Translations under genes and position numbers: made by a program
The notes under the pieces: model-generated
Told to the model about the DNA's origin: nothing
Databases searched by the model: none
The model's input: only the letters and a program-made list of their open reading frames with translations
NCBI RefSeq assembly: GCF_000013725.1
Contig: NC_007955.1
Span: forward strand, 2,201,579 to 2,265,578
Direction: 5' to 3'
Length of the DNA: 64,000 nt
DNA from: Methanococcoides burtonii DSM 6242
GTDB lineage: Archaea; Halobacteriota; Methanosarcinia; Methanosarcinales; Methanosarcinaceae
In this document: in pieces, positions 55,947 to 62,429 of the stretch
How the letters are laid out: each line of letters starts with the position of its first letter
Position numbering within the stretch: position 1 is the stretch's first letter

Positions 55947-56124
55947 CTTAATTTATGTGGTTTTCTTTTATCTTTGTTCCATGCATTATAGTTTACATCA
56001 TTTTTCATATCACAATTGCCAATACGTATAGTTTTTACATTTCGTTATGGCATATTATTATAATATATCGTTGTTTATAATAGAACAAAATTCCTTTAAA
56101 TTCTTTTGAACTAAGGTGAGAACA

Positions 56125-56295
56125 ATGCCAAAAGTAAGTGTCGACATTCCCCAGGAGCTGCTTGCTGATCTTAACAAGCACGTTGGTGATGATAAAAAGT
56201 TTGTGAACCAGTCCGATGCCATCCGTACAGCTATAAGGAAGATGCTGGATATGATGGATGATATAGACAGGCGTCACGGCAGAATGGATGATTGA
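56125..56295 (+). CDS. Ribbon-helix-helix (CopG-like) protein
   Basis: A 56-residue protein with the ribbon-helix-helix pattern: a beta strand (PKVSVDIPQELLADL), then a turn and the helix FVNQSDAIRTAIRKML. Such proteins dimerise and bind DNA as small repressors. It starts with an ATG behind AAGGTGAG. It stands alone without a toxin gene nearby, so it is not obviously an antitoxin. The target is unknown. Confidence 0.88.
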   Translation: MPKVSVDIPQELLADLNKHVGDDKKFVNQSDAIRTAIRKMLDMMDDIDRRHGRMDD

Positions 56296-58105: not shown

Positions 58106-58240
58106 TTTAGCACATCCTGCAATGGTTATACCTGTAGTTCTCTTATTATACTACATTTGTATGGATTATAGTATATTAGGGTGAATGGAACTGTCAAGTA
58201 TTTGATTTTATATATTAGTATGTCTTTGTGTGAACTGAAT

Positions 58241-59197
58241 ATGAGACTTGGCAGAGTTGATCTTCCCGGAAATCTTTTGCTTGCACCATTGGCTGAGGTG
58301 ACTAATCTTGCATTCCGTCTCATGTGTAAGAAATATGGTGCATCCCTTTGTTTTACCGAAATGATAAGTTCGGACGCTGTTGTTTATGGAAATGCCAGTT
58401 CCGCTATGCGTGGGATCACCTGTGATGAAGAGCGTCCTTTCGGTTTGCAGTTGTTCGGCAATTCTCCGGAAGTGATCACAGAAGCTGCACTTGTTCTCGA
58501 AGACATGTTCTATCCAGATATGATCGATATTAATCTTGGATGCCCGGCTCCGGTGATCACTAATGCAGGATGTGGTTCTGCACTGCTTGAATCTCCTGAG
58601 CTTGTTAGTGATATATTCTCAACTCTTTGTGAGGGGGTGGATACTCCTGTAACTGCAAAGATACGTGTGCTGGAGAGTCGTGCAGCTACTCTTGATATGG
58701 CACATAGGCTCGAGGATGCGGGGGTTTGTGCTATAACCGTTCACGGAAGGACCTGCGAACAGGGTTATAGTGGGACTGCTGACCATAGTTATGCAAAACT
58801 GATCAAAGAAGAACTTTCCATTCCAGTGATCGTCAATGGCGATATCAGGGATGGTGTGTCTGCTGAAAAGGTTCTGGAATATACTGGGTGTGATGGATTG
58901 ATGATAGGCAGGGCTGCAATGGGTGACCCTCACGTGTTCCATCGTATATCCAGATATTTGGATGATGGTGAGGTAATTGGGTGTGGATGTGAGCAGAAAA
59001 GGGATGACCTTCTGGAATATCTTGATCTTCTGGAGAAATTCGATCTATCCTCACATATTAATTTGAAAGCACATGTACAGTGGTTCACGAGAGGGTTGAA
59101 GGGCAGTCGAAGGATGCGTTCCGATATTGGATATGCGGATTCACGAGACTCTATTGTAGAGTTTGTTAAGAATATGTGTGAAAAAGAATTGGTGTGA
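58241..59197 (+). CDS. dus: tRNA-dihydrouridine synthase
   Basis: The 318-residue flavoprotein reduces uridine in tRNA to dihydrouridine. It has LLAPLAEVTNLAFR (about 14), the TEMISSDAVVYGN strand (about 40), the catalytic-cysteine motif INLGCPAPVITNAGCGSALL (about 92) and the FMN-phosphate site VNGDIRD...GLMIGRAAMGDP (about 200-230). The frame extends to 58181, but TTTATATATT at 58207-58216 lies about 30 bp before the ATG at 58241, which favours that leaderless start over an ATG at 58220. Confidence 0.92.
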   Translation: MRLGRVDLPGNLLLAPLAEVTNLAFRLMCKKYGASLCFTEMISSDAVVYGNASSAMRGITCDEERPFGLQLFGNSPEVITEAALVLEDMFYPDMIDINLGCPAPVITNAGCGSALLESPELVSDIFSTLCEGVDTPVTAKIRVLESRAATLDMAHRLEDAGVCAITVHGRTCEQGYSGTADHSYAKLIKEELSIPVIVNGDIRDGVSAEKVLEYTGCDGLMIGRAAMGDPHVFHRISRYLDDGEVIGCGCEQKRDDLLEYLDLLEKFDLSSHINLKAHVQWFTRGLKGSRRMRSDIGYADSRDSIVEFVKNMCEKELV

Positions 59198-59535
59198 TAT
59201 TTTGGTGTATTTTTATATTATTCCCGTGTATATGCGTGTTATTGTCTAACATGGTCTTTACATTGTGTTTTTGAACAAAAATGGATGTTTTTTCTGAGAA
59301 CTTTGTTCGATCAATTCACCAAAAGACTAAATAAGATTAGGATTGTACACAATTAAACATTGCATTTAGACTGCTATATGTATTTTTGGCAGTCTATGTA
59401 TGTGGAGGAACAGTCAACTCCACGATGGTAACTTTTTTGCCGATTCCTCTTGGCTATTGACCCGTTGCCATCTGAAAAACACTTTGACTGCTAATATCGT
59501 ACAATTATACACGCACTGTCATAGGAGAATAATAC
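59198..59535 (+). promoter_or_regulatory. Structured region upstream of the por operon
   Basis: This 338-bp spacer has no ORF of coding quality. It holds a perfect 8-bp hairpin TAGACTGC (59367-59374) with GCAGTCTA (59389-59396), a second hairpin GTGGAG (59402-59407) with CTCCAC (59418-59423) followed by TTTTTT near 59432-59437, and a repeat of the first arm, GACTGCTA, at 59486-59493. That third arm could compete for pairing with 59389-59394. AGGAG precedes the porC ATG. Together this looks like a regulated leader or a small RNA; that is inference. Confidence 0.5.
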
Positions 59536-60078
59536 ATGAAAGAAATACGAATACACGGTAGGGGTGGACAGGGCTCCGTTACTGCTGCTGAATTGCTTGC
59601 GGTTGCAGCTTTCGCTGATGGAAAGTTCAGCCAGGCTTTTCCAGCATTCGGTGTTGAGCGCCGTGGTGCACCTGTTCAGGCATTCACCAGGATCAATGAC
59701 GACCCAATCAGGCTAAGGGCACAGGTATACGAGCCGGACTATGTTATCGTTCAGGACCCGACCCTTCTTGAAGTGGTCGATGTAGAGAGCGGTGCAAAAG
59801 ATGATGGTGTTATTCTTATTAACAGTGACTTTGAGCCGGAACATTTCGATCTTAACACAAATGCAAAGATCATGACCGTCAACGCTACGAAGATCGCTCT
59901 TGACATCATCGGCAGACCTATTGTTAACACTGTTCTTTTAGGTGCTTTCGCCGGTGCTTCCGGTCTTATCGATCCGGAATCCATCAAGAATGCTGTTAAG
60001 GAGCGTTTCCCGGGTAAAATCGGTGAAAAGAACGCAGAGGCTATCCAGAAAGCTTACGATATGATGACGGAGGCTTAA
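59536..60078 (+). CDS. porC: Pyruvate:ferredoxin oxidoreductase gamma subunit
   Basis: The gamma subunit of the four-subunit enzyme that in methanogens carboxylates acetyl-CoA to pyruvate with reduced ferredoxin. The 180-residue protein starts with the family motif [19 protein letters not shown] and has [19 protein letters not shown] (about 34). GGAGAATAATAC precedes the start. It is the first gene of the porCDAB operon; the delta gene starts 3 bp after its stop. Confidence 0.96.
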
Positions 60079-60081
60079 ATT

Positions 60082-60342
60082 ATGACAATTACACCAGGCG
60101 GCGTTTGTGAACCAGGATCCACTCTTGTCAACAAAACCGGTGGCTGGAGAACATTCAGACCAGTTTTCGATTATGACAAATGCATCAAATGCAAACTCTG
60201 TGAGCTCCTTTGTCCGGACATGTCAGTCGATGCAAGAGATGACGGTTTCTTTGAGTTCAACTACGATTTCTGCAAAGGATGCGGTATTTGTGCGAACGAA
60301 TGTCCAACGGACGCTATTGAGATGGTTCTGGAGGAGAAATAA
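60082..60342 (+). CDS. porD: Pyruvate:ferredoxin oxidoreductase delta subunit
   Basis: This 86-residue ferredoxin-like subunit carries two [4Fe-4S] cluster motifs, CIKCKLCELLCP (about 34) and CKGCGICANECP (about 64), and conducts electrons to external ferredoxin. It lies between the gamma and alpha genes; the alpha start codon follows its stop directly. Confidence 0.97.
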   Translation: MTITPGGVCEPGSTLVNKTGGWRTFRPVFDYDKCIKCKLCELLCPDMSVDARDDGFFEFNYDFCKGCGICANECPTDAIEMVLEEK

Positions 60343-61557
60343 ATGAAACGTGATTTTGAGAATGACAAGAAGAACATGGTTGTTGTTGAAGGATCGTATG
60401 CTGTTGCAGACGCTGTAAAAGCATGCAGACCAAATGTCATTTCAGCATATCCTATTACACCACAGACTCATATTGTAGAGGATCTCTCCCAGTTCATTGC
60501 TGACGGCGAGATACCAAACTGTGAGTACATCAATGTGGAATCCGAGTTCTCCGCAATTTCCGCACTTGTCGGTTCTTCCGCAGCAGGTGCAAGGAGTTAC
60601 TCTGCGACCACATCACAGGGCCTTGAACTTATGCACGAGGTTCTGTTCAACGTCGCAGGTATGCGGTTACCTGTTGTAATGACCGTTGTGAACAGGGCTG
60701 TAAGTGCTCCTATCAACATCTGGAACGACCAACAGGATTCCATTTCCCAGAGGGATACCGGATGGATACAGCTTCACGCAGAGGATACTCAGGAAGCAGC
60801 TGACATGACCGCACAGGCATTCAAGATAGCTGAAGATCCGGATGTACTGCTTCCTGTATTGGCATGTATGGATGGTTTTATCCTGTCACATGTCTATGAA
60901 CCTGTGGTCCTTCTTGACGAAGATCTCGTAGCAGAATATCTGCCACCCTTTGAGCCAAAGTTCAAGCTCGACCCGAAGAACCCTAAGACCTTCGGTGCTT
61001 TTGCAGATCCTAATTCCTACACTGAGTTCAGATACCTGCAGCAGCAGGCAATGAACAAAGCATTGAAGACAATAGGGGATGCTGCAGATGAGTTCTATGA
61101 TCTCTTTGGCAGACATTATGGTGGTCTTATCGACACATACGAGACAGAAGATGCTGATATCATTCTCATGGCAATGGGTTCTATCGTTGGTACCATCAAG
61201 GATGTTGTTGACAAGCTCAGGGCACAGGGTGTCAAAGTAGGCCTCTTAAAGGTACGGTCCTTCCGTCCGTTCCCTGCAGAAGCTATTAAGAACGCTATCA
61301 AAGGTGCTAAAGTAGTTGTTGCGCTTGACAAGAACATTTCTCTTGGTCTTAATGAGGGTGCACTGTTCACCGAGACAAAGGGAAGCTTGTACAACACAAA
61401 TATCAATATTCCTATAATCGGTTTCATGATAGGTCATGGGGGTCGTGATATCCCAATGAGCACCATGGAGTTCATCGTTGACGAAGCAAAGAAAGTAATC
61501 GATTCAGGTATCACTGTCGAAAGCCGGTTCACTGACCTGAAGGAGGAATTGTTATGA
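60343..61557 (+). CDS. porA: Pyruvate:ferredoxin oxidoreductase alpha subunit
   Basis: The 404-residue alpha subunit binds pyruvate/CoA and forms the active site with the beta subunit. It contains [17 protein letters not shown] (about 37), [16 protein letters not shown] (about 87), and the C-terminal domain [15 protein letters not shown] (about 288). It overlaps the beta gene by 4 bp, and all por genes are translated as one unit. Confidence 0.96.
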
Positions 61558-62429
61558 AATCACTCTTAGAATCTGGACATAGGGGATGCGCAGGTTGCTG
61601 TGACGCAATAGCTGCAAAGTTCACTCTCATGGCAGCAGGTGAGGACTGTATCGTTGTAAGTCCTACCGGATGTCTTGAGGTCATGACCACTCCATATCCT
61701 GAATCTTCATGGAATGTCCCATTTATACACTCCCTCTTTGAGAACAATGCAGCAGTCGCTTCAGGCATTGAGGCAGCTCTCAAAGCGAAGGGCGAGTTAG
61801 GCAAGACCAAGATCATTGCAATGGGTGGTGATGGTGCAACCCTTGATATCGGTATACGTTCCATATCCGGTGCATTCGAGCGTGGACATGACTTCACATA
61901 TGTCTGTATCGACAATGAAGCATACATGAACACCGGTGTACAGAGAAGTGGTGCAACACCATTTGCAGCTTCGACCACAACCAGTCCTGCAGGTAAGGTG
62001 TCCTTTGGTAACATTCGTCCAAAGAAGAACATGCCAGCCATCATGGTAGCACATGGTTCTCCATACGTTACAACAACATCCATCGGATATCCAAAGGATA
62101 TGATAAGGAAGGTCAAGAAAGCTGTCGATGTCGAAGGTCCTACCTATGTGCATGCACATTCACCATGTACTACCGGATGGGGATTCGACACCTCCAAGAC
62201 CATAGAGATCGCAAAGCTGGCAGTCGAAACATGTCTCTGGCCACTCTATGAAATGGAAGATGGTGAGCTCACCAAGGCTAAGAAGATCAAGAACCCTAAA
62301 CCAGTCGAGGATTATCTTAAGATGCAGCGCCGTTTCAAACACCTTTTCACAAAGGAAGGTGGAGACGAGATGATCAAGAAGATACAGGCACTCGCTGACG
62401 CTAATATTGAGAAGTTCGGGTTACAGTAA
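61554..62429 (+). CDS. porB: Pyruvate:ferredoxin oxidoreductase beta subunit
   Basis: The 291-residue beta subunit binds thiamine diphosphate and one [4Fe-4S] cluster. Cluster-ligand cysteines lie in [13 protein letters not shown] (about 9) and later in SPTGCLEV and SPCTTGWG; the thiamine-diphosphate motif [21 protein letters not shown] with [10 protein letters not shown] is at about 93-130. The use of thiamine diphosphate ties it to the thiamine genes in the window. A hairpin with T-run follows. Confidence 0.96.

Follow-up and report, generated by a model that had tools for sequence, protein, structure and literature searches.

The pyruvate:ferredoxin oxidoreductase (por) operon of Methanococcoides burtonii appears, with a probability of roughly 0.6, to combine a dedicated DNA operator at its start site, recognised by a putative regulator, with a structured 5′ untranslated region (UTR) that carries a hairpin close to the start. 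An element of about 22–27 bp over the predicted start would be the operator of this dedicated regulator, which would block or tune initiation at por alone. The transcript would then carry a leader of about 180 nt opening with a hairpin directly after the element, and this start-proximal hairpin probably serves to shield the mRNA or to determine how long it lasts or how well it is translated. Little is known about how methanogens control pyruvate:ferredoxin oxidoreductase, the enzyme that gates the passage between acetyl-CoA and biosynthesis, and a hairpin beside the element raises the question of a link between transcription and the fate of the mRNA.

The window analysed here is a stretch of 64,000 nt from M. 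burtonii DSM 6242, and the studied leader (59340–59535) lies between a dihydrouridine synthase gene and porGDAB. The nearest relatives of this por locus are those of other Methanococcoides (98–99% protein identity). The features of the region are as follows.

58181–59197: dihydrouridine synthase gene, the upstream neighbour of the por leader
59319–59333, + strand: BRE/TATA box CCAAAAGACTAAATA, predicted promoter of the por operon; not part of the original prediction
59342–59368, + strand: near-invariant element ATTGTACACAATTAAACATTGCATTTA, with core ACACAATTAAACATTGCATTTA at 59347–59368, recognised by cross-genus conservation; proposed operator over the predicted start; not part of the original prediction
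59352–59356, + strand: predicted transcription start, approximate, placed 19–22 nt from TATA as in Methanolobus psychrophilus (PMC5378194)
59361–59400, + strand: P1, the start-proximal hairpin, GACTGCT (59369–59375) with GGCAGTC (59388–59394)
59402–59423, + strand: P2, hairpin GTGGAG/CTCCAC, from the inverted repeat and the alignment of relatives
59411–59490, + strand: Pc, possible long-range helix of CAGTCAA (59411–59417) with TTGACTG (59484–59490); not part of the original prediction
59424–59472, + strand: P3, GATGGTAAC/GTTGCCATC with an inner hairpin, from the fold and the alignment
59486–59493, + strand: GACTGCTA, third arm of a proposed switch, overlapping the 3′ arm of Pc
59524–59527, + strand: Shine–Dalgarno-like GGAG, from the sequence
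59536–60078, + strand: porG (gamma subunit), first gene of porGDAB (Pfam POR)
59536–62429, + strand: porGDAB operon (Pfam POR, Fer4, POR_N, TPP_enzyme_C)
60082, 60343 and 61554, + strand: porD, porA and porB, respectively (Pfam)

The element stands out by its conservation. Upstream sequences were extracted for 110 por loci (30 plus the best 80 of 206 listed matches, some genomes appearing twice), and ACACAATTAAACATTGCATTTA was present, with five or fewer mismatches, in the 300 nt preceding por at 65 of these 110 listed loci. The exact 22-mer occurred in 24 of 52 distinct leaders, a set in which identical leaders were merged and L031–L035 were left out as they came from the same genomes as L002–L005 and L011. 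In front of por, the sequence hardly varies in nine of the 14 sampled genera of the Methanosarcinaceae, including Methanococcoides, Methanolobus, Methanohalophilus, Methanomethylovorans and Methanosalsum together with ANME-3-like and further ones, and such a single site, shared across one family, would be a direct handle for finding the por regulator. Among the 110 listed loci it was not found in Methanosarcina, Methanoperedens or ANME-2, nor at a few Methanosarcinaceae loci (L036, where it has decayed, and the second por copies L062 and L063); for three of the 45 loci without it (L037, L059 and L099) the available upstream sequence is no longer than 100 nt, too little to tell. Two strains with two por copies each (L062/L071 and L063/L064) carry the element at one copy per strain.

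Within the window genome (2,575,032 bases) there is exactly one copy of the element, and no second match within three mismatches was found on either strand. Across the family, 74 of 111 Methanosarcinaceae genomes contained it with two or fewer mismatches (a count of sequence matches, adjacency to por having been checked for the 110 listed loci), and none of the family genomes listed had more than one exact 18-mer. All hits in Methanosarcina (g7), g2 and g10 had two mismatches and are probably due to chance, groups g9 and g11 had no hits, and no hit better than two mismatches was found outside the family among the 149 sampled genomes of the order. Over 14 lineage groups, which were assigned by genus and sequence without a tree, 21 of the 22 element columns were 85–100% identical and one was 64% identical, compared with 29–68% for the columns just downstream. 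The element is thus conserved across orthologous promoters beyond its surroundings, as an operator would be. No description of it was found in the open-licence literature on por regulation, methanogen leader RNAs or the letters of the motif.

Some features speak against an operator: a regulon consisting of a single site would be unusual, and the symmetry of the element is weak, consisting by eye of CAAT-N5-ATTG in the core, with an ATTGT-AC-ACAAT dyad seen by eye in Methanococcoides and a few others. The dyad ATTGTACACAAT was considered as a motif of a wider regulon and rejected, since its 21 matches with up to one mismatch in the window genome (including two palindromic places counted on both strands) versus 12 for the reversed control give no clear regulon. 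No regulator gene adjoining por was noticed by gene clustering or by eye; the gene 3′ of porB fell into one shared cluster in seven of 13 stretches, and the members viewed resemble endonuclease III by eye. A 59-aa open reading frame on the + strand at 56116–56295, 3.2 kb upstream of por, resembles a ribbon-helix-helix DNA-binding protein by eye and has no Pfam match at E ≤ 0.001.

The position of the element relative to the promoter bears on whether it acts as DNA or as RNA. The por leader is probably transcribed from the conserved BRE/TATA box and about 180 nt long. Of the 52 distinct leaders, 51 have a CCGAAAGACTAAATA-type sequence with four or fewer substitutions in the 60 nt that precede the element, 41 of these 51 having one substitution at most. 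Exact CCRAAANNNTWWATA occurs only five times in the whole window genome, the por site included, and a control set of CCRAAA-TATA promoters was dropped because five sites were too few. In M. psychrophilus, the distance between promoter and start is about 19–22 nt for 81.6% of primary transcripts (PMC5378194). The spacing between TATA and the element is 7 nt in ANME-3, g12 and g5, 13–16 nt in Methanococcoides, Methanolobus and Methanohalophilus, and 22–23 nt in Methanomethylovorans and Methanosalsum, so that starts 19–22 nt from TATA would shift along the element, from just before it to its middle. In the 7-nt class, transcription would be predicted to begin beyond the 5′ half of the element, whereas in the 22–23-nt class the whole element would follow the predicted start. 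As the predicted start falls at varying places in or beside the element, a DNA operator fits better than an RNA aptamer, which should keep its 5′ half across genera, whereas a start-site operator can tolerate a sliding start.

The element could instead act as RNA, as a 5′ UTR signal made of a conserved single strand and a variable hairpin, to which a protein or small RNA would bind so as to control the stability or translation of por mRNA, a reading that we consider unlikely. It would account for a hairpin that stays beside the element at different distances from TATA, and long 5′ UTRs are common in cold-adapted methanogens (PMC5378194). It would also gain from pairing of the 3′ half of the element with downstream sequence, which is seen in the main Methanolobus group (z −2.9), g5 (−2.0), ANME-3 (−1.6) and two further groups (−1.3 to −1.4). 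However, over all 14 groups this pairing is unclear (mean z −0.58, SE 0.28; the 5′ half gave −0.27, and two control targets gave 0.06 and 0.11), and it was rejected as a family-wide rule. The element is also more invariant than pairing alone requires, and the 7-nt class would place its 5′ half outside the RNA. A further variant, in which the 22-nt sequence is read twice, once as the DNA site of a por-only regulator and then as the 5′ strand of the start-proximal hairpin with a partner strand reinvented in each genus, is a long shot; if true, this dual reading would couple, for a central carbon enzyme, the initiation of transcription to the fate of the mRNA through one element.

The structured leader, the other part of the operator-and-hairpin reading, is most evident just after the element. 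Folding z-scores of minimum free energy (MFE) were calculated for 45-nt segments along the 52 distinct leaders and averaged within the 14 groups. The mean over groups was −1.38, −1.45 and −0.89 at +8, +16 and +24 from the start of the element, and between −0.44 and +0.21 at all other positions. At +16, z was below zero in 12 of 14 groups and below −1 in nine; the hairpin was missing there in Msal_a and g13 (z +0.2), and three further groups were weak (−0.6 to −0.9), namely Methanomethylovorans, whose hairpin is strong at +8 (z −3.6), the second Methanolobus set and Msal_b. By eye, the hairpin sequences appear unrelated between genera, suggesting that a hairpin right after the element is usually kept, in most lineages, while its letters change by genus. 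In Methanolobus, three pairs (four cells) were changed on both sides, numbers reached by five and eight of 500 shuffles, respectively, and the percentage paired was reached by 65 of 500, these counts having been made on structures derived from the same sequences. No compensatory pairs were found in Methanomethylovorans. One Methanomethylovorans-like leader (L036:2356-2420) has a decayed element and retains ten of the 12 hairpin pairs.

It might be argued that the hairpins are incidental to an ordinary promoter and UTR, with the above-chance folding arising from local composition or relatedness. The excess over whole leaders is indeed modest, with z < −2 in 15 of the 52 leaders (mean −1.39) versus five of 42 control upstream regions (mean −0.45; controls taken upstream of open reading frames hand-picked in the window, some probably inside operons, with one at the window end skipped), and z is around 0 or positive for several leaders of other genera. 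However, the structure peak is tied to one position and is seen again in sequences that are unlike each other, compensatory changes occur in two genera, and the conservation of the element would be left unexplained, all of which makes this account very improbable.

The original prediction had described the leader as a set of competing hairpins with the layout of an attenuator or riboswitch, on an enzyme that needs thiamine diphosphate. The inverted repeats it named are present: the stem arms TAGACTGC (59367–59374) and GCAGTCTA (59389–59396), the repeated arm GACTGCTA (59486–59493) and the second repeat, GTGGAG (59402–59407) with CTCCAC (59418–59423). Folding is also stronger than expected by chance, with an MFE of −49.9 kcal/mol and z −3.33 for 59340–59535 and z −4.44 for the sub-region 59363–59499 (0 of 200 shuffles as good in either case). 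P1 has a pair probability of 0.97 in the window and is extended at its base by TGCATT (59361–59366) pairing with 59395–59400, with one mismatch in the window. Together with the predicted upstream promoter, this supports a long, probably transcribed and structured leader, and because the stems come after the predicted promoter, a transcript start downstream of 59440, named beforehand as counter-evidence, is not indicated. On the minus strand, the P1 loop (59374–59389) reads CCAAAAATACATATAG (CCAAAAATATATATCG in several relatives), which resembles a BRE/TATA sequence pointing away from por and is a possible antisense start.

The terminator and the conserved switch fared less well than the repeats and the folding. 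TTTTTT had been taken as the tail of a GTGGAG/CTCCAC terminator, but the run (59433–59438) begins 9 nt past that stem and lies inside P3, between its arms at 59424–59432 and 59464–59472, and therefore does not form a hairpin-plus-U-tail terminator. A scan for sigma-70-type promoters and terminators gave no terminator-like sites in 59000–60200 and was set aside as unsuited to archaea. The layout is also poorly conserved: P2 (alignment columns 56–61/72–77, invariant) is present in five of the 52 distinct leaders, all close relatives within Methanococcoides (group A below) and including the window, and a T6 run beyond the first 40 nt in four, all close relatives; the corresponding run is T5 in L004 (group A) and L011 (group B). 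As for a riboswitch, no Rfam match above gathering was found in the window except two tRNAs, and a search of 59200–59560 gave four hits at E 0.66–2.2, none of them a riboswitch and none to the TPP class at E ≤ 5, so that a TPP or other Rfam-class riboswitch was rejected. Past the element, the leader (29–68% identical per column) is unalignable between genera and shows no aptamer conserved in sequence and structure across the relatives.

Comparison within Methanococcoides informs on the individual helices. Each of 11 genomes of the genus had one leader match and no second copy. Group A comprises the leader of the window and four others that are 93–97% identical to it over 261 nt; the six of group B (L006–L011) are 72–75% identical to the window leader, with partial matches that cover only the first 41–51 nt. 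P1 occurs in both groups, with one mismatch in L003, L006 and L008 and the end pair lost in the other four group B leaders. The groups differ in P2 and P3, and in P3 three pairs show consistent one-sided changes in the alignment of relatives. At the place homologous to Pc, group B has a helix with other letters: both sides differ between all group A and all group B leaders at positions 4 and 5 of seven, position 3 is changed on both sides in L009 only and broken in L007 and L010, and position 7 is paired in the window and unpaired in the other four group A leaders. The Pc arms of the relatives were located by motif and the comparison therefore leans towards pairing. Pc could form a pseudoknot with P2; with pseudoknots excluded, it has a pair probability of 0.002 in the window, and a fold containing it lies 3.4 kcal/mol above the best. 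In group B, four pairs of its own RNAalifold structure, derived from these same leaders, were changed on both sides (reached by 36 of 500 shuffles) with six both-sided cells (reached by none of 500), while group A alone had no compensatory pairs. The leader is structured, as judged by its folding and pairing, and the evidence falls short of a conserved switch.

In the proposed switch, GACTGCTA at 59486 would compete with TAGACTGC at 59367 for GCAGTC at 59389. An 8-bp hairpin with a loop of 3–20 nt is expected in 5.0% of 20,000 dinucleotide shuffles, and such a hairpin together with a third arm of 6 nt or more in 0.31%, which makes the arrangement rare. The competing GCAGTC–GACTGC pairing lies just 1.9 kcal/mol above the best fold in the window (pair probability 0.03), belongs to the best fold of L003, where P1 has its mismatch, and can form with 7–9 bp including wobbles in all five group A leaders and with 8 bp in L006 and L008. 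However, group A is so nearly identical that it offers little information on this pairing, the other four of the six group B leaders reach only 6 bp, at least half of them wobbles, and the scarcity of P2 and T6 runs and the lack of a terminator-like site or Rfam riboswitch match also weigh against a switch. We regard it as highly doubtful, and it is not needed to explain the por leader. The eye-catching competing hairpins are the less conserved part, while the 22-nt element in front of them is what is conserved across genera.

Several known systems resemble the proposed operator or leader in part. Archaeal repressor operators placed on TATA or shortly after it, such as the NrpR sites in Methanosarcina, share with the por element a conserved sequence that spans the start region in orthologous promoters; the por element differs in sequence, in its weak dyad and in being a single site in the window genome. 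Within the same family, the transcriptional regulator Mbar_A2165 is said, in 2015 work by Lopez Munoz, to act on por in Methanosarcina barkeri. A review describes M. barkeri with upregulated por as growing on pyruvate (PMC9797515). The Methanosarcina por promoters among the listed loci lack the element, however, so the site of Mbar_A2165 may not be the same. The motif of TrmB, TACT-N7-8-GAGTA, is absent from the por element, and TrmB has many targets. In Haloarcula hispanica, a distant lineage, TrmB binds the porA/B promoter, tying it to central carbon metabolism, and the pyruvate oxidation genes are reported as not differentially expressed in a TrmB mutant (PMC10817205). The likeness is thus a transcription factor at a por promoter, known in that species and proposed here.

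The leader also invites comparison with the long 5′ UTRs of cold-adapted methanogens, which are 20–150 nt for most mRNAs and are discussed in terms of cold stability (PMC5378194). At a predicted length of about 180 nt the por leader is similarly long, but differs in being tied to a conserved start-site element and to one operon. Similarly, Por shares with systems under TPP riboswitches the use of thiamine diphosphate (Pfam TPP domains), but the por leader has no Rfam match and no aptamer sequence conserved across genera.

Other lineages have por promoter blocks of their own. In Methanosarcina (L077, L085, L086, L095, L096, L098, L103, L106, L107 and L109; 300 nt upstream), a block around GCAGTGTGCC...CTTGCCAAACAGACTGCCGAGAACAGC or close variants contains TGCC-type direct repeats by eye, and is a putative target of the M. 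barkeri regulator. The Methanoperedens-type promoters (L080, L083, L084, L088, L092, L100, L104, L105, L108 and L110) share a different block, GCAATTGT...CATTCATCACGATTGATTATT with variants, which by eye lies directly 3′ of a TATA-like sequence.
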